Source: Aliigemmobacter aestuarii (GTDB taxonomy: Bacteria > Pseudomonadota > Alphaproteobacteria > Rhodobacterales > Rhodobacteraceae). From it: DNA of 64,000 nt. Positions 1 to 53,635 of this stretch are shown here, in pieces. The first letter of the stretch is position 1. Each line of letters begins with the position of its first letter. Both the position numbers and the translations under genes were made by a program. Below the pieces are notes generated by a model. The model was not told where the DNA came from and did no database searches. It saw nothing but the letters and a program-made list of their open reading frames with translations. The stretch lies in NCBI RefSeq assembly GCF_004799285.1, contig NZ_SSND01000004.1:248001-312000 (forward strand). Reading direction: 5' to 3'.

Positions 1-241
1 CCACGCAAGCCACCCTGCCATTGCGTCACGCCTGAAGCGCGCCGAGGGGCATCTGCGCCGCGTCATCGGCATGATCGAGGAGGGCCGACCTTGCGTCGAT
101 CTCGCCACGCAACTCCATGCCGTCGAACGGGCGGTGGCCGAGGCGAAACGGGCGCTGATCCATGACCATATCGACCATTGCCTGACCGGCGAAGGCACGC
201 ATGACCTGGCCGAGATCAAGGCCCTGACAAAGCTGCTGTGA
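1..241 (+). CDS. CsoR/RcnR/FrmR-family metal-sensing repressor, C-terminal part
   Basis: The gene enters from the left edge and is read in frame from base 2 to a TGA at 239-241, giving 79 visible residues. The protein is an all-helical DUF156-type DNA-binding repressor. Visible family hallmarks are the RLKRAEGHLRRVI helix, a Cys in GRPCVD, a His near the start (SHPAI) and a His/Cys pair in DHIDHC, which correspond to the metal or aldehyde sensing positions of the CsoR/RcnR/FrmR group. The stop overlaps the start of the following exporter, so the two are co-transcribed. Whether it senses nickel/cobalt, copper or formaldehyde cannot be decided; the His-rich partner favours nickel or cobalt (inference). 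Confidence 0.85.
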   Translation, partial: HASHPAIASRLKRAEGHLRRVIGMIEEGRPCVDLATQLHAVERAVAEAKRALIHDHIDHCLTGEGTHDLAEIKALTKLL

Positions 242-1548
242 TGCTCGGGACCCTGCGCAACCCCACGTTCCGCCATCTCTTCGCCGCGCAGGTCGTGGCG
301 CTGGTCGGCACGGGGCTGGCCACTGTCGCGCTTGGCCTTCTGGCCTGGCAGCTTGCAGGGGAAAATGCGGGTCTGGTCCTGGGCACCGCTCTGGCGATCA
401 AGATGGTGGCCTATGTGACGCTCGCGCCTGTGGCAGCGGCCATCGCCGAACGCCTGCCGCGGCGGGCGTTTCTAGTCGCTCTGGACCTGATCCGGGGGGG
501 TGTCATCGCCTTCCTGCCCTTCGTGACCGAGGTCTGGCAGGTCTATCTGTTGATATTCTTCCTTCAGGCCGCCTCGGCCGGGTTCACCCCGGCTTTTCAG
601 GCAGTCATCCCCGACGTGCTGAAGGACGAGGATGACTACACAAACGCCCTGTCGCTGTTGCGGCTGGCAGAAGACCTGGAACAACTTGCCTCGCCGATGC
701 TGGCGGCGGCCCTGCTGACAGTGGTCAGCTTCCCTGTGCTGTTCGCGGGCACGGTCGCGGGCTTCGTCACCTCGGCCCTTCTGGTGGTCACCGCCCGCCT
801 GCCTGCGCGGGTGGCGGCAGAGCCCGGTCGTTTCTGGGCCGACGTGACCAAGGGGATCCGCATCTATGCCCGCACCCCGCGCCTGCGCGGGTTGATGGTG
901 ATGGAGGCCGCCGTCGCCGCCGCGGGGGCAATGGTCTATGTGAACACTGTCGTGCTGGTGCAGGCCCGGCTGGGGCTCGGCGAGGAATCCGTGGCGTTGG
1001 CCTTCGCGGGCTTTGGGGCGGGGTCGATGCTGGCGGCCTTCCTTCTGCCCCGCATCCTTGATCGTTTCTCCGACCGTCCGGTGATGATCGGCGGCGCTGT
1101 CCTGATGGTTGCAGGCGTGGCGCTGGTGCCGCCAGTGCGCAGCCTGGCGGGGCTTGTCGTGCTTTGGGCCATGATTGGCTTCGGCTTCTCGCTGACACAG
1201 ACACCCATAGGGCGGATCATCAGCCGTTCCGCACGCGAGGCCGACCGGGGTGTCGTCTTCGCCGCGCAATTCGCCCTGAGCCATGCCTGCTGGCTGGTGA
1301 CCTATCCGCTTGCGGGCTGGATTGGGGCGGGTGCTGGGCTTTCGGCCGCGGCGCTGGTCCTTGCCGCCATCGGCGCTGCGGGCCTCGCCGCCGTGCTGCG
1401 ACTCTGGCCGGCCGATGACCGGGCCGTGATTGCCCACGCCCATCCGGACCTTCCGCCTGACCACCCGCATCTGGCCGAACATGGCCCCCATCATGCCCAT
1501 GTCGTGGTCATCGACGACCTTCACCCCCGCGGGCCGACCGTGGCGTGA
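241..1548 (+). CDS. MFS transporter with histidine-rich C-terminal tail (putative metal exporter)
   Basis: A major facilitator of about 435 residues, consistent with 12 membrane segments and the EntS/NreB-like branch. The last 35 residues form a cytoplasmic-looking tail rich in His (HAHPDLPPDHPHLAEHG and more), as in NreB-type nickel exporters. ATG at 241 overlaps the upstream TGA by one base; GTG at 238 would be an alternative start. Placement directly behind a CsoR/RcnR-type repressor suggests metal-inducible efflux. The metal itself is inference. No other gene of a nickel or cobalt system is visible. Confidence 0.8.
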   Translation: MLGTLRNPTFRHLFAAQVVALVGTGLATVALGLLAWQLAGENAGLVLGTALAIKMVAYVTLAPVAAAIAERLPRRAFLVALDLIRGGVIAFLPFVTEVWQVYLLIFFLQAASAGFTPAFQAVIPDVLKDEDDYTNALSLLRLAEDLEQLASPMLAAALLTVVSFPVLFAGTVAGFVTSALLVVTARLPARVAAEPGRFWADVTKGIRIYARTPRLRGLMVMEAAVAAAGAMVYVNTVVLVQARLGLGEESVALAFAGFGAGSMLAAFLLPRILDRFSDRPVMIGGAVLMVAGVALVPPVRSLAGLVVLWAMIGFGFSLTQTPIGRIISRSAREADRGVVFAAQFALSHACWLVTYPLAGWIGAGAGLSAAALVLAAIGAAGLAAVLRLWPADDRAVIAHAHPDLPPDHPHLAEHGPHHAHVVVIDDLHPRGPTVA

Positions 1549-1690
1549 TCCGCAGCCGCATCTGACGCGGGCAGGCCCGAAGCAGGGCAGGGGCAACCGA
1601 ACCCTGGCGGAACCTGCGGCGCGGCTTGACGCAGATCAGGGCGGACGCCTTCCGCCCATGCGCTGATGCGCATGAGTTGGAGCACACCGG

Positions 1691-1981
1691 ATGATCGTAA
1701 CCGCGCTTTCCGCCCTTGCCGAGCCAACCCGCCTTGAGGCAATGCGCCTTTTGGCCGACGGGTCGGAACATTGCGTCTGCGAGCTTGTGCGGAGGCTGGG
1801 CGCAACCCAAAGCCGGATGTCGCGGCACATGCAGGTGCTGAGGCAGGCGGGGCTGGTCGTGGACCGGCGCGATGCGCAATGGGTGCGCTACCGGATCAAC
1901 CCGGACCTGTCGCCGCCCCTGATCCGTCTCGTCGAAGCCGCGCTGGAGCGGCGGATCATGGTGACGGAGCAGGCGGCATGA
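1691..1981 (+). CDS. ArsR/SmtB-family repressor
   Basis: A 96-residue winged-helix repressor. The stretch EHCVCELVRRL holds Cys28 and Cys30 in the position of the arsenite/antimonite site of classical ArsR (ELCVCDL), followed by the recognition helix TQSRMSRHMQVLRQAGLV. Its TGA overlaps the ATG of the permease by four bases (ATGA), so it heads a three-gene operon with the permease and a thioredoxin-like protein. Predicted role is to repress this operon until a thiol-reactive metalloid or metal binds. The 142 bases upstream show no other gene. Confidence 0.9.
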   Translation: MIVTALSALAEPTRLEAMRLLADGSEHCVCELVRRLGATQSRMSRHMQVLRQAGLVVDRRDAQWVRYRINPDLSPPLIRLVEAALERRIMVTEQAA

Positions 1982-2976
1982 GCGTGTTCGGCTGGCTGAA
2001 CGACCAACTGCTGCGGATGACCTGGCTCAACGATCTGGTGGGCGCGGGCGTGGCGGCCATCGGGCTGGACCCGGCCTCGCGGCTTGGCGGGTCCGTCCAG
2101 TTCTTCGTCTATGACGTGATCAAGATCTTCATCCTGCTGTCGGTGCTGATCTTTGCCATCTCTTATGTCCAAAGCCATTTCCCGCCGGAACGGACGCGCG
2201 CCATGCTGGGCGGGCGGTCAGGTCTGGGCGCCAACACGCTGGCGGCGCTTCTGGGGACGCTGACGCCGTTCTGTTCCTGTTCGTCGATCCCCTTGTTCAT
2301 CGGGTTCACCGCCGCGGGCCTGCCGCTGGCGGTGACGTTTTCGTTCCTGATCTCTTCGCCTCTGGTCGATCTGGCCTCGGTGATCCTGCTGGCGTCGATC
2401 TTCAGCTGGCCGATTGCCCTTGCCTATGTGGGGGTCGGGCTGGTGGTGGCGATCCTTGGCGGGACGATCATCGGCCGCCTGGGGTTGGAGGATCAGGTGG
2501 CGGCGTTCGTCCGCACCGTCCCCGTTTGCGGCGAGGTCGCGGCCATGACGCGGGGTGAACGCGTGACCTATGCGCGCGACCAGGTGGTGGAAATCGTCCA
2601 CCGCGTCTGGCCCTTTGTTCTGGTCGGTGTCGGCATCGGGGCGGCGATCCACAACTGGGTGCCTGCCGATGTTCTTTCGGCCCTTCTGGGACAGGACAAG
2701 TGGTGGTCGGTCCCGGTGGCGGTGCTGGCGGGGATCCCCATGTATGCCGACATCTTCGGCACCCTGCCGATTGCCGAGGCGCTGGTGGGCAAGGGCGTTG
2801 GCCTGGGCACGGTGCTGGCCTTCATGATGGCGGTGACCGCCCTGTCGCTGCCCTCGCTCATCATGCTGAAGCGCGTGGTGAAGATGCCGCTTTTGGTCAC
2901 CTTTACCGGCGTCGTGACGCTTGGCATCCTGTCCATCGGGCTGATCTTCAACGCGATTTCCAACTGGTTCATCTGA
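1978..2976 (+). CDS. DUF318/ArsP-type permease
   Basis: An integral membrane protein of 332 residues with about eight to ten hydrophobic segments. The signature TPFCSCSSIPLFIGF near residue 100 and the motif PMYADIFGT are typical of the permease family that includes YraQ and the organoarsenical exporter ArsP. The start ATG at 1978 overlaps the ArsR stop; an in-frame extension to 1771 reads only through the ArsR gene in another frame and is rejected. Context (ArsR before, CxxC thioredoxin-like protein after) points to metalloid or metal efflux. The exact substrate is not visible. Confidence 0.85.
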   Translation: MSVFGWLNDQLLRMTWLNDLVGAGVAAIGLDPASRLGGSVQFFVYDVIKIFILLSVLIFAISYVQSHFPPERTRAMLGGRSGLGANTLAALLGTLTPFCSCSSIPLFIGFTAAGLPLAVTFSFLISSPLVDLASVILLASIFSWPIALAYVGVGLVVAILGGTIIGRLGLEDQVAAFVRTVPVCGEVAAMTRGERVTYARDQVVEIVHRVWPFVLVGVGIGAAIHNWVPADVLSALLGQDKWWSVPVAVLAGIPMYADIFGTLPIAEALVGKGVGLGTVLAFMMAVTALSLPSLIMLKRVVKMPLLVTFTGVVTLGILSIGLIFNAISNWFI

Positions 2977-2990
2977 GAGAGGACCGCATC

Positions 2991-3218
2991 ATGATCATCA
3001 AGATCCTTGGATCCGGCTGCAAGAAATGCGTGGCCCTGGGCGAAAACGCCAAGGCCGCCGTGGCCGCGGCTGGCAAGGATGCCGAGATCGTCAAGGTCAC
3101 CGACTTTGCCGATATTGCTGCCTATGGCGTGATGTCGACGCCGGGACTGGTGGTGGACGAAAAGGTCGTCTCGACCGGCAAGGTGCTGACGGCCGAAGAG
3201 ATTGGAAAACTGATCTGA
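2991..3218 (+). CDS. Small thioredoxin-fold protein (redox-active disulfide family)
   Basis: A 75-residue protein starting MIIKILGSGCKKC: a single minimal thioredoxin fold with the CxxC redox centre at residues 10-13 and a cis-Pro type STPGLV turn near residue 50. It matches the mini-thioredoxins often encoded next to DUF318 permeases. It begins 14 bases behind the permease with an AGAGAGGA ribosome site. It may deliver or reduce the permease substrate, or keep the permease CSC motif reduced; both are inference. Confidence 0.85.
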   Translation: MIIKILGSGCKKCVALGENAKAAVAAAGKDAEIVKVTDFADIAAYGVMSTPGLVVDEKVVSTGKVLTAEEIGKLI

Positions 3219-46190: not shown

Positions 46191-46208
46191 TGTCGCAAAA
46201 GTTTTACA
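46191..46208 (+). promoter_or_regulatory. Weak Pho-box-like direct repeat before pstS
   Basis: TGTCGCA and TTTTACA start 11 bases apart, the spacing of PhoB half sites, about 100 bases before pstS. The match to CTGTCAT-type half sites is poor. Confidence 0.3.
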
Positions 46209-46292: not shown

Positions 46293-47333
46293 ATGAAAAG
46301 CTTGCACATCACCGCCTCGGCGCTTGCCATTGCCGCCCTCTCGGCGGGCGCGGCATCCGCCCGCGACCAGATCCAGATCACCGGGTCGTCGACGGTGCTG
46401 CCCTATGCCACCATCGTCGCCGAAGCCTTCGGCGAGAATTTCGACTTCCCGACCCCTGTCGTCGAAGGCGGCGGTTCGGGCGCCGGGCGCAAGAAGATGT
46501 GCGAAGGCGTGGGTGAAAACACCGTCGACATCGCCAATTCGTCCTCGCGCATCAGCCAGTCGGACATCGACCTCTGCACCCAGAATGGCGTGGCCGAGGT
46601 CATGGAAGTTCGCATCGGCTATGACGGGATCGTCTTTGCCTCGGATGTGAACGGCCAGGAATTCGCCTTCACCCCCGCCGACATCTACACCGCGCTTGGC
46701 AAGCAGGTCCTGAAGGACGGCGCGCTGGTCGACAACCCCAACACCTCGTGGGATCAGGTCAACGCCGCGTTCCAGCCGCAGGATATCCTGGTCTTCGTTC
46801 CGGGCACCAAGCACGGCACGCGTGAAGTGTTCGACACCAAGGTGATCATCGCCGGCTGCGAGGCCACCGGCGCGATGGCCGCCTTCGCCGCCGCCAACAA
46901 CGGCGACGAGGACAAGGCCGAGGAACTGTGCATGGACCTGCGCACCGACGGCCGGTCGGTCGACATCGACGGCGACTACACCGAAACGCTGGCCCGCGTG
47001 GATGCCGACAAGAACGGCATCGGCGTGTTCGGCCTGTCGTTCTACCAGAACAACACCGACAAGCTGCGCGTGGCGACCATGGGCGGCGTGGTGCCTTCGG
47101 TCGACTCGATCGCCAAGGGCGAATACCCGGTGTCGCGCCCGCTCTACTTCTACGTCAAGAAGGCGCATCTGGGCGTGATCCCCGGCCTGAAGGAATATGT
47201 GGAGTTCTTCGTGTCCGACGACATGGCCGGTCCGGACGGCCCGCTGGCGGCCTATGGCCTGGTGTCCGACCCGGAACTGGCCGCGACCCAGGCGGCGGTG
47301 GCTGCGGAAACCCCGATGGGCCCGCTGAACTGA
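46293..47333 (+). CDS. pstS: Phosphate ABC transporter substrate-binding protein
   Basis: A 346-residue periplasmic phosphate-binding protein: signal peptide MKSLHITASALAIAALSAG ending ASA, then ITGSSTVLPYA with the Ser/Thr phosphate-binding loop, EGGGSGAGRKKMCEG and the NSSSRISQSD segment. A CAGGAGAG site precedes the ATG. It is followed by a hairpin that may raise its expression above that of the permeases. In this setting (next to ars genes) it could also matter for phosphate/arsenate discrimination. Confidence 0.93.
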   Translation: MKSLHITASALAIAALSAGAASARDQIQITGSSTVLPYATIVAEAFGENFDFPTPVVEGGGSGAGRKKMCEGVGENTVDIANSSSRISQSDIDLCTQNGVAEVMEVRIGYDGIVFASDVNGQEFAFTPADIYTALGKQVLKDGALVDNPNTSWDQVNAAFQPQDILVFVPGTKHGTREVFDTKVIIAGCEATGAMAAFAAANNGDEDKAEELCMDLRTDGRSVDIDGDYTETLARVDADKNGIGVFGLSFYQNNTDKLRVATMGGVVPSVDSIAKGEYPVSRPLYFYVKKAHLGVIPGLKEYVEFFVSDDMAGPDGPLAAYGLVSDPELAATQAAVAAETPMGPLN

Positions 47334-47396: not shown

Positions 47397-48857
47397 ATGA
47401 CCGTCTTTCTTCTGACCCTCGTGATCATCGCGATCGCCCTGGCCGGCTTTTTCCTTGGGCGCGGCAGGGCGATTTCGTCGGTCACGGGGGATGTGCGGCG
47501 CCTGCATTCGCTGCCCGGCTATCATGGCTGGCACGCGGCGCTGATGGTGCTCATGCCGGCCTTCGGGCTGCTTCTGGTCTGGCTGGTCGCCCAGCCGGTC
47601 GTGCTGGAACGCCAGGTTCTGCCCTACCTGCCCGCCGAGGTCGTCGCCGACGACACCGCGCGCACGCTTGCGATGGCCGATGTGCGCCGGGTGGCCACGG
47701 GCCTTGATGCGGCCGTCCTGGCAGGCACCATGACCGAAGACGCGGCCGGCACGATCCGCGCCGAACTGACCGACCTCCGCGCCCGCCTGGCCGAGGTCGG
47801 CGTCGCGCTCGGGTCCGATGTGAAACCCGAGACGCTTCAGGCCGCGCAGGCCTATCGCACGGGTTTCGCCACGGCCATCTTCTGGCGCGGCATCATCACC
47901 ATCGCCGCGGCGCTGGCGGGGCTTGGCTATGCGCTGTCGGTGACGCGGGCCGATTTCCGCGCGCGCAACCGGGTCGAGGCGGTGACCCTGGGCATCCTGA
48001 TCACCGCCTCCTCGATCGCGATCCTGACCACGGTGGGCATCATCTGGTCGATGCTGTCGGAAAGCGTGAACTTCTTCCGCCAGTATCCCGCGGCGGATTT
48101 CTTCTTTGGCCTGACGTGGAGCCCGAATTTCCGGGGAGGGTCGGAACTGGGCTTCATCCCGCTTCTGTGGGGCACGCTTTACATCTCGTTCGTGGCGATG
48201 GTCGTCGCGGTCCCGCTTGGCCTGTTCACGGCGATTTATCTGGCCGAATACGCCTCGGCGCGGACCCGGTCCATCATCAAGCCGCTGATCGAGGTGATCG
48301 CGGGCATCCCGACGGTGGTCTTCGGCCTGTTTGCGCTTGTCACCGTGGGACCGTTCCTGCGCGACTATTTCGCCGAACCCTTCGGGCTGGGGAATTCCGG
48401 TTCGTCGGTGATGACGGCGGGGATCGTGATCGGGATACTCAACATCCCCTTCATCTCGTCCCTGGCCGATGACATCATCAATTCCGTCCCGCAGGCGATG
48501 CGTGACGGCAGCTATGGCCTGGGCGCCACGAAATCCGAAACGGTCCGGCAGGTGATCCTGCCCGCCGCGCTGCCGGGGATCGTGGGCGCCGTCCTGCTGG
48601 CCGCCAGCCGCGCCATCGGCGAGACGATGATCGTGACGATGGGGGCAGGGGCCGCGGCCAAGCTGTCACTCAACCCGTTCGACGCGATGACGACCATGAC
48701 GGTCAAGATCGTCGGCCAGCTGACCGGCGATACCGATTTCGCCAGCCCCGAAACGCTCGTGGCCTTCGCCCTTGGGATCACGCTGTTCGTGATCACGCTG
48801 GGTCTGAATGTCCTGGCCCTCTTCATCGTGCGCAAATACCGCGAGCAATACGAATGA
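47397..48857 (+). CDS. pstC: Phosphate ABC transporter permease PstC, long form
   Basis: A 486-residue permease, about 160 residues longer than E. coli PstC. The extra N-terminal part has two or three membrane helices and a periplasmic-looking segment (residues 75-155). The conserved transporter core begins near residue 200, with VIAGIPTVVFGLFAL and the EAA-type SLADDIINSVPQAMRDGSYG. Its stop overlaps the pstA start. Long PstC/PstA pairs are known in alphaproteobacteria. Confidence 0.92.
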   Translation: MTVFLLTLVIIAIALAGFFLGRGRAISSVTGDVRRLHSLPGYHGWHAALMVLMPAFGLLLVWLVAQPVVLERQVLPYLPAEVVADDTARTLAMADVRRVATGLDAAVLAGTMTEDAAGTIRAELTDLRARLAEVGVALGSDVKPETLQAAQAYRTGFATAIFWRGIITIAAALAGLGYALSVTRADFRARNRVEAVTLGILITASSIAILTTVGIIWSMLSESVNFFRQYPAADFFFGLTWSPNFRGGSELGFIPLLWGTLYISFVAMVVAVPLGLFTAIYLAEYASARTRSIIKPLIEVIAGIPTVVFGLFALVTVGPFLRDYFAEPFGLGNSGSSVMTAGIVIGILNIPFISSLADDIINSVPQAMRDGSYGLGATKSETVRQVILPAALPGIVGAVLLAASRAIGETMIVTMGAGAAAKLSLNPFDAMTTMTVKIVGQLTGDTDFASPETLVAFALGITLFVITLGLNVLALFIVRKYREQYE

Positions 48858-50206
48858 CCGATATCCCCGCCACCCCCGTGAACCCCACGCGCCCGGTGAA
48901 ATCCATCTATTCGGGCGGGGCCGAGATGCGCCGCCGCAACGCCGCCGAGGCGCGGTTCCGCTTCTACGGGCTGTTTGCGATCACGCTCAGCCTCGGCGTG
49001 CTGGCGATCATGCTCTGGACGATCTTCAGCGACGGTGTCAGCGCGTTCAAGCAGGCCAAGCTGACCTTTCCGGTCACGCTTGCCCCCGAGGTGCTGGACC
49101 CGGCCGGAAACCGCGACCGCGCCGAGATGACCAAGGTCACGACGATCGGCTATGGTCGCGTCCTGGCCGGGGCCTTCCGCGCCGAACTCGAGGCGCGGCA
49201 GATTTCCACCGAAGGCGTCTCGGACAAGGAGATTGCAGAACTGATCTCGAAGGACGCGCCGGGCGTGCTGCGCGCCGAGGTGCTGGCCGATACCGCGCTT
49301 GTCGGAACGACACAGGTGATGACCGTGCTCGCCTCGGGGCGGATCGACGGCTATCTGAAGGGGCGGGTGACGCGGGCAACCGCCGAACGTGACGCGCAGA
49401 TCAGTCCCGCCATGCTGGACCTGGCCGACCGCCTGCAGGACGCGGGCATCCTGAAGACCGGCTTCAACCTTGGTTTCCTGACCTCGCCCGACGCCTCCGA
49501 CCAGCGGCCCGAGGCCGCAGGCCTTGGCGTGGCGATCATCGGATCGGCGTACATGATGCTGCTGGTGATCGTGATCTGCGTTCCCGTGGGCGTCGCGGCC
49601 AGCATCTATCTCGAGGAATTCGCGCCGAAGAACCGGCTTACCGACATCATCGAGGTGAACATCTCGAACCTCGCCGCGGTGCCCTCTATCGTCTTCGGCA
49701 TCCTTGGCCTCGCGGTCTTCATCAACTTTGCGAAGTTCCCGCAATCCTCGCCCGTCGTGGGCGCGCTGGTCCTGAGCCTGATGACGCTGCCCACGATCAT
49801 CATCGCCTCGCGCGCGGCGATCCGGGCGGTGCCGCCGTCGATCCGGGATGCGGCGCTCGGTGTCGGGGCCTCGAAGATGCAGACGGTGTTCCATCACGTC
49901 CTGCCGCTGGCCGCGCCGGGCATCCTGACCGGCACCATCCTGGGCCTCGCCTCGGCGCTTGGCGAAACCGCGCCGCTTCTGCTGATCGGGATGGTGGCCT
50001 TCGTCGACAACTACCCCGCGCCCCCGGTCGAGGGCTTCTTCGATCCCGCGACCGCCCTGCCGGTGCAGGTTTATTCCTGGGCCAGCCGGTCCGACCCGGC
50101 CTTCATCGAACGGTCAAGCGGCGCGATCATCGTGCTTCTGGTCTTCCTCGTGATCATGAACGTGACCGCGATCATCCTGCGCCGGAAGTTCGAACGCCGC
50201 TGGTAG
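48854..50206 (+). CDS. pstA: Phosphate ABC transporter permease PstA, long form
   Basis: A 450-residue permease with an enlarged N-terminal half (residues 40-230 mostly periplasmic) and the usual core near NLAAVPSIVFGILGLAVF and VPPSIRDAALGVGASKMQTV. It overlaps pstC by four bases. The expected next gene pstB (ATPase), phoU and phoB are absent: a hairpin terminator and then the ars operon follow. An ATPase must be supplied from elsewhere. Confidence 0.92.
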   Translation: MTDIPATPVNPTRPVKSIYSGGAEMRRRNAAEARFRFYGLFAITLSLGVLAIMLWTIFSDGVSAFKQAKLTFPVTLAPEVLDPAGNRDRAEMTKVTTIGYGRVLAGAFRAELEARQISTEGVSDKEIAELISKDAPGVLRAEVLADTALVGTTQVMTVLASGRIDGYLKGRVTRATAERDAQISPAMLDLADRLQDAGILKTGFNLGFLTSPDASDQRPEAAGLGVAIIGSAYMMLLVIVICVPVGVAASIYLEEFAPKNRLTDIIEVNISNLAAVPSIVFGILGLAVFINFAKFPQSSPVVGALVLSLMTLPTIIIASRAAIRAVPPSIRDAALGVGASKMQTVFHHVLPLAAPGILTGTILGLASALGETAPLLLIGMVAFVDNYPAPPVEGFFDPATALPVQVYSWASRSDPAFIERSSGAIIVLLVFLVIMNVTAIILRRKFERRW

Positions 50207-50269: not shown

Positions 50270-50399
50270 AAACCATCCGGCCGCCGCTGCCCCGCCGGGC
50301 GACCGGGGGAGGTTGCCGTGGGCCTTTGCCGTGGCGGCCGTTTGCAGGGGGGCGTTTCAAGGGGGGGGCTGTCATCAAACCTTCACTGGACCGGCGTTT

Positions 50400-50423
50400 A
50401 TATTTCCGTAGTACTGGAAATAT
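50400..50423. promoter_or_regulatory. ArsR operator overlapping the arsRC start codon
   Basis: Perfect inverted repeat ATATTTCC-N8-GGAAATAT. The right arm ends on the first two bases of the ATG at 50422. A TTTATAT -10-like element overlaps the left arm, so transcription would begin within a few bases of the start codon and bound repressor would cover the promoter. Confidence 0.7.
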
Positions 50424-51282
50424 GGAACAGAATCGCGCCGCCCATGCCTTTGCCACGCTCGGCCATCCCGGCCGGCTGGCCGTGTTTCGCCTCTTGATGC
50501 GCTTCGCCCCGCAAGGCGTGCGCCCGACCGAGATCGCCGAGGCGCTTGGCCTGAAGCAGAACACCCTGTCGCATCATCTGGCCGACCTGACCGCTTCGGG
50601 CCTTGTCGGCGTCCGGCGGCAGGGGCGGTCGCTGTTCTACGCCGTTGATCTTGACGCGACCGAGGGCCTGATCGGCTATCTCGCGCTCGACGTGGGCCGC
50701 GCCCGGCCCGATCTTCTTGCCCCCTTGCTATCGGCCCCGAAGGACAGCGCCCAAATGGACCCGACCCCCCCCGATACCGATTTCGCCGTGCTCTTCATCT
50801 GTTCGGGCAATTCCGCCCGCTCGATCTTTGCCGAGGCGCTTCTGCGCGATCTGGGCAAGTGCCGGTTTCAGGCGTTTTCGGCGGGCACCCGCCCCAACAC
50901 GGCGTTGAACCCCTTCGCGCTGGACGTGCTGCGGCGCAACGGGCACGACACCTCCGGCCTGCGGTCCAAGCATATTTCCGAATTCCAGCAGCCGGGCGGC
51001 ATCGTCATGGATTTCGTCTTCACCGTCTGCGACACGGCCGCGGCCGAGGAATGCCCGCCCTGGCCCGGCCAGCCGATCACCGGCCACTGGGGTCTGCCCG
51101 ACCCAGTCAAGGCCACCTGCACGGATGCCGAAAGGGCGCTGGTCTTCGCCCAGACCTATGCCGCGCTCCGCCGCCGGATCGCGGCCTTCGTCGAGCTTCC
51201 CTTCGCAAGCCTCAGCCGGATGTCGCTCCAGTCCCGCGTCGATGCCATTGGCCTTGACGCATTCACGGTCGAGAAAGGTTGA
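50422..51282 (+). CDS. Fusion of ArsR-family repressor and low-molecular-weight arsenate reductase
   Basis: A 286-residue two-domain protein. Residues 1-95 are an ArsR-type winged helix ([21 protein letters not shown]); residues 121-260 are a thioredoxin/phosphatase-type ArsC with the CSGNSAR P-loop (Cys127, Arg133) and the later Cys203 and Cys211 of the disulfide relay. The repressor part contains no Cys at all, so it cannot use the classical three-Cys arsenite site. ATG 50422 lies in its own operator; the longer frame from 50326 has no ribosome site. Followed four bases later by GAPDH. Confidence 0.88.
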
Positions 51283-51286
51283 TCCC

Positions 51287-52294
51287 ATGCCACGCATTGC
51301 CCTGAACGGCCTTGGCCGCATCGGAAAACTCGTCCTGCGCGACCTGATCGACGCAGGCAGCGGCGGCGAGATCGTCCTTCTGAACGACCCCGCTGGCGAC
51401 GCCGAACAGCACGCGCTCTTGATGGAGTTCGACTCTGTCCACGGCCGCTGGCGCACGCCTGTCGCCGCAGGCGAAGGCGCGTTGGTGCTGGATGACCGCG
51501 CCATCCGGCTTTGCCATGAGAAGACCATCGAGGCGCTGCCACTCGCGGACCTGGGCGTCGATCTGGTCATCGACTGCACGGGCGTCTTCAAGACCGCCGC
51601 CAAGGTCGCGCCCTATTACGCCGCCGGGGTGAAGAAGGTGGTCGTCAGCGCCCCGGTCAAGGATGGCGGCGCGCTGAACCTCGTCTACGGGGTGAACCAT
51701 CACCTCTACGACGGGTCTCAGGCGCTGGTCACGGCGGCCTCCTGCACGACGAACTGCCTCGCCCCGGTGGTCAAGGTGATCCACGAGGCGCTTGGCATCC
51801 GGCACGGGTCGATCACCACGATCCATGACGTGACGAACACCCAGACCATCGTGGACCGCCCCGCCAAGGACATGCGCCGCGCGCGCTCGGCCCTGATGAA
51901 CCTGATCCCGACGACAACGGGATCGGCCACCGCGATCACGCTGATCTATCCCGAACTCAAGGGCCGGCTGAACGGCCATGCGGTGCGCGTGCCGCTCTTG
52001 AACGCCTCCCTCACCGATTGCGTCTTCGAGGTGGAACGGGCGACCACGGCCCAGGAGGTCAACGCGCTTTTCGCCGCCGCCGCCGAAGGCCCGTTGAAGG
52101 GCATCCTCGGCTATGAGACGCGGCCGCTGGTGTCCTGCGACTTCACCAACGATCCGCGCTCCTCGATCGTCGATGGCCCCTCCACCATGGTCATCAACGG
52201 CACGCAGGTGAAGATCTACGCCTGGTATGACAACGAATGGGGCTATGCCTGTCGCCTCGCCGATATCGCGCGGATGGTCGCACAAGGTCTCTGA
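51287..52294 (+). CDS. Glyceraldehyde-3-phosphate dehydrogenase of the arsenic operon
   Basis: A 335-residue type [17 protein letters not shown] loop at the N-terminus, catalytic Cys153 in [10 protein letters not shown], and the C-terminal [11 protein letters not shown]. In ars operons such a GAPDH uses arsenate in place of phosphate to form 1-arseno-3-phosphoglycerate, which ArsJ exports. The position between an ArsC fusion and ArsJ makes this role far more likely than a housekeeping glycolytic one. A GC-perfect hairpin lies between it and arsJ. Confidence 0.93.
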
Positions 52295-52329
52295 TCCGCT
52301 TCAACCTGATCGAAATACCCTCGGGGGGT

Positions 52330-52352
52330 GCGGGGGGCAGACAGCCCCCCGC
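52330..52352 (+). other. Intra-operon GC hairpin between GAPDH and arsJ
   Basis: Perfect 9-bp stem GCGGGGGGC/GCCCCCCGC with loop AGACA. No U-tract; possibly an attenuator or an mRNA processing/stability element setting the GAPDH:ArsJ ratio. Confidence 0.6.
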
Positions 52353-52378
52353 CTCTTCGCCGGCCAAAGGACCGCCCG

Positions 52379-53635
52379 ATGACCGCCTTGAACCCGTTCC
52401 GCGCCTATGCCGCCGTCACGGCGGCCTACTGGGCCTTCATGCTGTCGGACGGCGCGCTCAGGATGCTGGTGCTCTTGCACTTCAACAGCCTCGGCTTTTC
52501 GCCGGTCCAACTGGCCTGGCTGTTCCTTCTGTATGAAGTCGCCGGCATCGTCACGAACCTTGCGGCGGGGTGGCTGGCCGCCCGGTTCGGCCTTGCCGCC
52601 ACGCTTTACGGCGGGCTGGCCCTGCAGATCGGCGCGTTGGCCGCGCTGGCAGCGCTTGACCCCTCCTGGGGTATCGCCGCCTCGGTCACCTTCGTGATGG
52701 CGGTGCAAGGGGTGTCGGGCGTGGCCAAGGACCTGGCCAAGATGTCGTCGAAATCCGCCGTGAAGCTGCTGGCGCCAGCAGAGGACGGCGGCCTGTTCCG
52801 CTGGGTCGCGCTGCTGACCGGATCGAAGAACGCGGTGAAGGGCGCGGGCTTTTTCCTTGGTGCAGCACTTCTGGCGCTGGCGGGGTTCCAGGCGGCCGTC
52901 TGGGGCATGGCGGCGGTGCTGGCGGCGATCCTTGCCACCGTCGTCCTGTTCCTGCCCGCAGGCCTTCCGGGCCGCATGAAGGCCGACGAGGCATGGCGGG
53001 GCTGGAGGTCGAAGGATGCGCGGGTGAACCGGCTCTCCCTCGCCCGGATGTTCCTTTTCGGCGCGCGCGACGTCTGGTTCGTGGTGGGCATCCCGGTCTA
53101 TTTCCAGGCGATCCTGTCCGACGGCACCGCCGAAGGGCGGCGCGAGGCCTTCTTCCTGATCGGCGGTTTCCTCGCGCTCTGGATCATCGCCTATGGCGCG
53201 GTGCAGGCCGTCGCCCCACGCCTTCTGGGCGCGAAGGGCCAGCCCTTGGCCGAAACGACGCGAAAGGCCGTCCTCTGGGCGGGGCTTCTGGTGCCGATCC
53301 CCTTCCTTCTGGCCGGGGCGGCATGGCTGGCGGGTGGCCCCGCCCCCTGGCTGACCGCCACGCTGATTGCGGGCCTGCTGCTGTTCGGCTTCGTCTTCGC
53401 GGTCAATTCCTCGGTCCATTCCTACCTGATCCTCGCCTTCGGATCGGCCGAACGGATCACGCGGGATGTGGGGTTCTACTACATGGCCAATGCGGCGGGG
53501 AGGCTGACCGGCACGCTTCTGTCCGGCCTCAGCTATCAGATCGGGGGGCTTCCCCTTTGCCTGTCGACGGCGGGGGCGATGGCGCTGGCCAGCTGGCTGG
53601 CCATCCGGCGCATGCAGCTGTCTGGTCAGGAATGA
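52379..53635 (+). CDS. arsJ: Organoarsenical efflux MFS permease
   Basis: A 418-residue MFS protein with twelve predicted helices. The conserved loop GVAKDLAKMSSKSAVKLLAP (about residues 118-137) is characteristic of ArsJ, which extrudes 1-arseno-3-phosphoglycerate. The export product breaks down to arsenate outside, so GAPDH plus ArsJ forms an arsenate efflux route. ATG 52379 is preferred; the 17-codon longer reading would include the hairpin. Third gene of the ars operon. Confidence 0.92.
   Translation: MTALNPFRAYAAVTAAYWAFMLSDGALRMLVLLHFNSLGFSPVQLAWLFLLYEVAGIVTNLAAGWLAARFGLAATLYGGLALQIGALAALAALDPSWGIAASVTFVMAVQGVSGVAKDLAKMSSKSAVKLLAPAEDGGLFRWVALLTGSKNAVKGAGFFLGAALLALAGFQAAVWGMAAVLAAILATVVLFLPAGLPGRMKADEAWRGWRSKDARVNRLSLARMFLFGARDVWFVVGIPVYFQAILSDGTAEGRREAFFLIGGFLALWIIAYGAVQAVAPRLLGAKGQPLAETTRKAVLWAGLLVPIPFLLAGAAWLAGGPAPWLTATLIAGLLLFGFVFAVNSSVHSYLILAFGSAERITRDVGFYYMANAAGRLTGTLLSGLSYQIGGLPLCLSTAGAMALASWLAIRRMQLSGQE

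Follow-up and report, generated by a model that had tools for sequence, protein, structure and literature searches.

How does a cell recognize arsenate when the repressor of its arsenate-export genes has no site for arsenite? ArsR repressors respond mostly to arsenite while ArsJ operons act on arsenate, and the detection of arsenate is a question raised in PMC9601151 (papers cited here by PMC number are cited for individual passages). An arsRC-gapdh-arsJ operon of this kind lies in a 64,000-nucleotide stretch of the Aliigemmobacter aestuarii genome (contig NZ_SSND01000004.1, positions 248,001 to 312,000; hereafter the window), where the first gene encodes an ArsR domain fused to an ArsC domain. 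Our tentative answer, to which we give somewhat less than an even chance, is that ArsRC in the clade containing the window is a one-component arsenate sensor, in which catalysis by the reductase domain rather than the binding of arsenite drives the ArsR domain off DNA, gated together with the phosphate regulator PhoB.

The locus had first been read from its sequence as arsRC, an ArsJ-associated GAPDH and arsJ, with pstSCA upstream, and family-model matches confirm that all of these genes are present. Both parts of the GAPDH-ArsJ arsenate efflux system adjoin one another, each above its NCBIfam cut-off, and the GAPDH carries an SCTTN motif with Cys153, which we take to be the active site. Gaps of 4 bases between arsRC and gapdh and of 84 bases between gapdh and arsJ separate the three genes. 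The ArsRC protein consists of an ArsR domain (approximately residues 1-104), a linker, an ArsC or low-molecular-weight phosphatase (LMWP) domain (approximately residues 121-258) and a C-terminal helix, and it matches HTH_metalloreg (NF033788) with 60 bits (cut-off 55) and LMWPc (PF01451) with 50.5 bits (cut-off 23.2). That GAPDH and ArsJ together form an arsenate export route, as originally proposed, agrees with the family models and with the literature (PMC9601151, PMC6205960, PMC5930303). We infer that the operon confers arsenate resistance by exporting 1-arseno-3-phosphoglycerate.

The closest solved ArsR-family repressor, both by sequence and by the fold of the predicted model, which is the winged-helix ArsR fold, is 6j05, presumably AfArsR. 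We take the CC..C of this structure, located after the last helix, to be the arsenite-binding cysteines of AfArsR, and the segment DCCRGRPEIC of a triad-bearing relative (L090) aligns onto it, a single-residue gap falling at the third cysteine. At the triad positions 91, 92 and 99 the window has V, G and L, its ArsR domain contains no cysteine at all, and a three-cysteine As(III) site of the AfArsR type is absent from it. The earlier view of the fusion as simply a repressor joined to a detoxifying reductase is therefore not supported in its plain form, since the repressor part lacks any arsenite-binding cysteine. Among 150 fusion loci (149 fetched from matches in a survey of 390 genomes of the order, with all rows shown from one family, plus the window), the triad is complete in 111, lost entirely in 33 and reduced to one or two cysteines in 6. 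Twenty-four of the 33 complete-loss proteins have no cysteine before residue 120; in the others cysteines are scattered, mostly at position 59 (8 proteins). The neighbours of the lost cysteines, D90, R93 and R95, are nearly invariant.

The columns that define the trait were left out when a careful tree of 81 fusions was built. In it 30 sequences with an incomplete triad, the window's among them, group in a single clade (support 100/97); one member (L067) keeps a single cysteine. The triad label requires 5 changes on this tree (4 of them forced by supported branches) and 7 on a quick tree of all 150 fusions (5 forced). Eleven ArsJ loci without a fusion were examined. Six of these show the order arsR-acr3-gapdh-arsJ with an unfused ArsR, and DCCGG.PELC occurs near the C terminus in the five that were translated, the unfused ArsR of L241 being left out of the comparison; no ArsR-domain match was found in five of the eleven. 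Because the unfused repressors of the arsR-acr3-gapdh-arsJ loci carry the triad, the triad is probably ancestral and its loss derived, given the assumed root of the tree. The five loci with a triad-bearing unfused ArsR (L233, L234, L236, L237 and L239) come from other genera. Candidate Pho-box-like sites, with scores of 11.4 to 20.8, start 73-85 bases before the arsR of these loci.

Loss of the cysteines does not appear to reflect decay of the domain. Within the window's clade, the ArsR domain has a ratio of nonsynonymous to synonymous differences (pN/pS) of 0.30, compared with 0.33 for the joint, 0.73 for the linker and 0.23 for the ArsC domain, where the values are uncorrected proportions and pS, at 0.5 to 0.7, is near saturation. 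By this measure the ArsR domain of the clade is under purifying selection.

The ArsC domain is conserved in the residues expected of an enzyme. C127, R133, C203 and C211 are invariant in 150 of 150 fusions, as well as in the window and all 80 loci of a set from named genomes, and they align to matching residues of Bacillus subtilis ArsC (1jl3), so that the CX5R P-loop and the relay cysteines are both in place. We assume catalytic roles for all four, with C127 and R133 in the P-loop and C203 and C211 as relay cysteines. In the predicted ArsRC model (mean pLDDT 84.6, pTM 0.57) the best fold matches are arsenate reductases, ahead of tyrosine phosphatases; ArsC2 of Deinococcus indicus, in a structure with arsenate, comes first, its TM score by target length being 0.89-0.93.

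These same residues bear on two alternatives to a sensing role for catalysis. One is that arsenite is still the signal for the repressor but is sensed by the ArsC cysteines C127, C203 and C211, for instance if the protein holds on to the product of its own reaction. Three conserved thiols do lie within one domain, and arsenite is bound in one structure of pI258 ArsC (1lju, by its title); nothing points to arsenite occurring in these cells without reduction, however, and no structure of the fusion dimer is available, and we regard this explanation as improbable. The other is that ArsRC combines a repressor with a working bulk arsenate reductase, whose arsenite exits by an unrecognized route, a DUF318 permease or another, alongside GAPDH-ArsJ. 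Its catalytic residues are intact throughout and its predicted fold is nearest to true arsenate reductases, and acr3 lies near arsRC in 36 of the 150 loci, so that reduction and arsenite export could cooperate in some relatives. A tie between triad loss and a missing nearby acr3 was considered and rejected: with one Acr3 query at E<=1e-10, acr3 is near 8 of 39 fusions without the full triad versus 28 of 111 with it (p = 0.67).

A bulk reductase would call for an arsenite exit. The original prediction had pointed out that the locus encodes neither Acr3 nor ArsB, as is the case, and had proposed a search of the genome, which is 99.98% complete in 12 contigs; there are no matches to Acr3 (TIGR00832) or to ArsB (PF02040), in a search that did not extend to ArsK, ArsM, the E. 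coli-type ArsC (PF03960) or unknown pumps. Two further LMWP matches are found in the genome, by eye one of tyrosine-phosphatase type and one divergent, both without the ArsC relay cysteines. The genome also contains one MIP channel with the motif NPARSFGPA, which we take to be AqpZ-like.

The DUF318 permease encoded near the start of the window had been suggested as the arsenite exit, a role that the survey does not support overall. Homologues occur in 62 of the 380 genomes searched, and Acr3 is present in 38 of these 62 versus 172 of 328 other genomes (p = 0.21), which indicates that DUF318 homologues as a whole are no stand-in for Acr3. For close homologues there is a weak trend in the suggested direction, with Acr3 in 6 of 18 genomes (12 without it) versus 204 of 372 others (p = 0.09), where the 18 were hand-picked, 2 are partial matches and the totals come from 390 genomes, 10 of them outside the DUF318 search. 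Among 14 genomes that have neither a full triad nor Acr3 above cut-off, a close homologue is found in 4 and any homologue in 6. A characterized ArsP does not extrude inorganic arsenite according to a review (PMC6205960), but the window's permease need not be an ArsP. Considering the lack of an Acr3 or ArsB match, the absence of a general DUF318 enrichment in Acr3-less genomes and the fact that a bulk reductase leaves the loss of the arsenite site beside a conserved repressor domain unexplained, we consider that explanation unlikely, although its chance is still appreciable.

The permease itself belongs to a group of genes at 238-3218 of the window that also encodes an MFS transporter with a His-rich tail, an ArsR with a CVC motif (1691-1981) and a small thioredoxin-like protein. 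Neither the SO_0444 nor the SaoE model matches the DUF318/ArsP_1 permease above its cut-off. The thioredoxin-like protein is a by-eye call with no family match. This is probably a separate arsenic or metal module; its own ArsR with CVC, which we take to be the E. coli-type arsenite site, makes it look separately regulated.

Table. Features of the arsRC-gapdh-arsJ operon and of the pst genes upstream of it, in window coordinates.
Feature	Position	Strand	Remarks
Pho box of pstS, TGTCGCAAAAGTTTTACA	46191..46208	+	matrix score 20.9, the best in the window on both strands; itself among the 19 matrix sites
pstS, phosphate-binding protein	46293..47333	+	
pstC, permease, DUF3708 domain included	47397..48857	+	
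pstA, permease, DUF3333 domain included	48854..50206	+	
Pho box of the ars operon, TGTCATCAAACCTTCACT	50370..50387	+	matrix score 16.6, the second-best in the window; same position in relatives
-10-like element, TTATAT	50398..50403	+	by-eye reading; 10 bases 3' of the Pho box
Candidate ArsRC operator, palindrome ATATTTCC-GTAGTACT-GGAAATAT	50400..50423	+	abuts the start codon
arsRC, ArsR-ArsC fusion	50422..51282	+	286 residues
gapdh, ArsJ-associated GAPDH	51287..52294	+	NF033735, 542.6 bits (cut-off 450)
arsJ, MFS organoarsenical efflux permease	52379..53635	+	NF033734, 518.1 bits (cut-off 400)

The promoter of the operon carries two candidate control sites (Table). The first is a Pho box, identified with a matrix derived from 19 pstS-upstream sites (those of 30 pstS loci, with 420-base upstreams, that passed by score), two of which (L138 and L153) are poor by position and sequence and were retained. 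When both strands of the window are ranked with this matrix, the pstS and arsRC sites come first and second, and the arsRC score exceeds the 99.9% point of shuffled upstreams (16.6 versus 15.4). At the pstB locus of the genome the top site, scoring 23.9, lies before pstB. A 23-base pattern of the ars Pho box has a single site in the genome and is too strict for the pstS box, and a looser canonical Pho-box pattern gives no match in the window because both boxes deviate from it. A consensus scan found no sigma-70 promoters, and terminators were at chance level. The presence of a Pho box in the promoter, as judged by the pstS-derived matrix, suggests that the arsRC-gapdh-arsJ operon is switched on together with Pst under phosphate shortage, by way of PhoB.

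The second site is a palindrome of the kind expected for an AfArsR-type repressor acting at its own promoter, present in the window and in relatives, to which ArsRC is predicted to bind. Of 81 loci, 75 have the 20-base operator beginning 20 bases upstream of the start codon, and its palindromy averages 6.3 of 10 pairs versus 3.0 when the letters are shuffled; the use of palindromes as search seeds favours this contrast but leaves the fixed position unaffected. The operator half-sites, read by eye, seem to covary with the recognition helix (residues 51-55). Fusions with an incomplete triad mostly combine TTCC..GGAA with NTLSHHL; triad-bearing ones combine TTCa..tGAA with Tyr52 (97 of 111).

With a Pho box in 32 of the 33 complete-loss fusions, PhoB might be the only control, with the triad-less ArsR domain blind to ligands and serving as a fixed brake or for autoregulation. 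If so, the ArsC catalytic residues would be dispensable, yet they are invariant, and both the ArsR domain and the operator stay conserved. We therefore find control by PhoB alone quite unlikely.

Pho boxes are more frequent where the triad is incomplete. In a scan of 100-base upstreams at 1% false positives, a Pho box is found before 25 of 37 fusions without the full triad versus 16 of 44 with it. When the search is anchored on the operator, with a 1% shuffle threshold, the counts are 35 of 39 versus 39 of 111, and all 74 matches fall between -31 and -34, although 12 offsets were permitted. The named-genome loci, whose organisms are partly shared with the set of 150, give 30 of 34 versus 15 of 46 (n=80); two of them (L274 and L296) were kept as scored on a doubtful operator anchor. 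Fisher tests of triad loss against Pho box, which ignore relatedness, yield p = 1.6e-9 and 8e-7.

These features can be joined into a mechanism to which we would give nearly, though not quite, an even chance: arsenate export that is activated by PhoB, repressed by ArsRC and released by an arsenate signal from the fused ArsC domain. The operon would export arsenate that enters along with phosphate. Arsenate uptake is most dangerous when phosphate is short, and PhoB would activate Pst and the ars operon jointly under phosphate starvation, since more arsenate enters starved cells. The ArsR domain would occupy the operator and repress the operon; the operator and the conserved ArsR domain suggest that repression by the product of the first gene persists. 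The P-loop of the fused ArsC domain would bind or reduce arsenate, and it would be this enzymatic event, rather than free arsenite at the ArsR domain, that frees the repressor from the operator, whereupon GAPDH would make 1-arseno-3-phosphoglycerate and ArsJ would export it. The fused ArsC would thus act mainly as a sensor and not as a bulk detoxifier, which would explain how the cell manages without Acr3 or ArsB. Since the arsenite site is absent and the cell has neither pump, arsenate acting on ArsC would be the most economical signal.

Several observations, along with the scope of the exporter search given above, weigh against this mechanism. With 63 of 174.3 bits for TIGR02691 and 39.3 of 157.6 for TIGR02689, the ArsC domain falls short of the equivalog cut-offs for arsenate reductase, so that this activity is not given by annotation, and its key residues are equally invariant in triad-keeping fusions and thus fit a plain reductase too. 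Acr3 is present above cut-off somewhere in 23 of 37 genomes whose fusion has an incomplete triad, and many of these could therefore handle arsenite. The second half of the ars Pho box (CTTCACT) fits the pstS matrix worse than the first half. When corrected for relatedness, any loss of the triad corresponds to 5 independent pairs, with 1.1 the same way and 0 opposite, and complete loss to 3 independent pairs, with 2.0 the same way and 0 opposite; the association of triad loss with the Pho box is consistent in direction but not significant after this correction. Moreover, a Pho box also precedes 39 of the 111 triad-bearing fusions and 3 of the 6 with partial loss, which indicates that the two traits are not tightly coupled.

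The cassette itself is common. The fusion protein is matched in 303 of the 390 genomes (E<=1e-20, partial matches counted), ArsJ above cut-off in 284 and Acr3 above cut-off in 210, and Acr3 is also present in 172 of the 284 ArsJ-bearing genomes. The order arsRC-gapdh-arsJ is kept in 143 of the 150 fusion loci, and is thus more than chance and an ordinary, widespread arrangement in Rhodobacteraceae. Two near-identical divergent fusions (L099 and L112) keep the triad and have no gapdh or arsJ nearby. Rhodobacter capsulatus, which is used as a laboratory organism, also has a triad-less fusion together with gapdh, arsJ and a Pho box. Plasmid pTM1 of Tistrella mobilis, a species outside Rhodobacteraceae, likewise carries a fusion that lacks the triad, alongside gapdh and arsJ, which would suggest transfer of the whole operon.

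The neighbouring pst genes are a different matter. The idea that pst next to ars forms a meaningful pair, part of the original prediction, is not supported as a general feature: within flanks of about 6 kb (80 loci) or 4.5 kb (69 loci), a number of them shortened by contig ends, pst genes like those of the window occur at 3 of the 150 loci, including the window, and pst adjacency therefore looks mostly incidental, with the Pho box as the more general link to phosphate. Another of the three (L091) has pst neighbours downstream that are distant (40-43% identity). In the third, Phycocomes zhengii (L304, on the same contig as L189), pstA-pstB-phoU-phoB runs directly into arsRC-gapdh-arsJ; its fusion retains the arsenite triad, and no Pho box of its own scores above threshold.

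The remaining alternative, that pstSCA and the ars operon work as one unit, an arsenic island that has a Pst of its own, would gain from the Phycocomes zhengii arrangement and from published arsenic islands with extra pst operons (PMC3834237, PMC5930303). We judge it very improbable, given the scarcity of matching pst genes in the flanks, the separate Pho box of each operon and the PstS of the window, which is the genome's single match to that PstS at E<=1e-40 and so probably belongs to the main Pst rather than to an extra one. The single PstB of the genome above cut-off is not with pstSCA and lies on another contig (G000:C3), beside phoR, phoU and phoB, the latter three named by eye. The pst genes of this organism are thus split, with pstSCA in the window and pstB with phoU and phoB beside phoR elsewhere, and each part has its own strong Pho box.

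If ArsRC works as proposed, an enzyme has been recruited as the ligand sensor of an ArsR-family switch. With a conserved repressor that has no arsenite site and is joined to an enzyme that handles arsenate, arsenate sensing would be reduced to a DNA-binding question about one protein. The Pho box would further suggest that arsenate defence is run in advance, within the phosphate-starvation programme, across much of Rhodobacteraceae.

Several components of this picture are already known, namely ArsR-ArsC fusions, pst in arsenic islands, PhoB control of aioBA and a suggested As(V)-sensing ArsR in Vibrio cholerae. In one open-access library, surveyed mostly at the level of listings, we found no report of a Pho box before arsRC-gapdh-arsJ or of triad loss in ArsR-ArsC fusions. 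With regard to phosphate control, PhoB binds a Pho box before aioBA in Halomonas HAL1 (PMC4563254), and in Nodularia under phosphorus limitation the ArsJ-associated GAPDH shows log2 changes of 1.57 and 2.41 and ArsJ smaller ones of 0.29 and 1.20, while most arsenate-related genes show no clear response (PMC9846622). These cases concern other genes or other phyla, and the passages that describe them do not include an ArsR-ArsC fusion.

Among GAPDH-ArsJ efflux systems, those of Pseudomonas aeruginosa DK2 and Halomonas GFAJ-1 (mfs1-mfs2-gapdh) have neighbouring permease and GAPDH genes like the operon described here. The arsenic island of Halomonas GFAJ-1 likewise includes a pst operon, as pst lies beside ars in the window, but in the relevant passages the strain is described as lacking genes for arsenate reduction (PMC5930303), whereas the operon here has an ArsR-ArsC fusion as regulator, an operator and a Pho box. 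The var operon of Vibrio cholerae (arsR-varG-varH-arsJ) is likewise an ArsJ operon without an arsenite pump, and its authors state that its ArsR, in which residues of the arsenite motif are changed, probably senses As(V), a point they left to further work (PMC9601151). That operon differs in that ArsR is encoded by its own gene and a phosphatase gene, varH, is present, and PhoB has 0 occurrences in the main text of the report (PMC9601151). The ArsR-ArsC fusions of Leptospirillum, Microbacterium, Sinorhizobium and actinobacteria embody the same two-domain idea (PMC6205960, PMC6514093); compared with these by their published descriptions, the fusions examined here are distinguished by a clade without the arsenite triad and by their partners, gapdh and arsJ.

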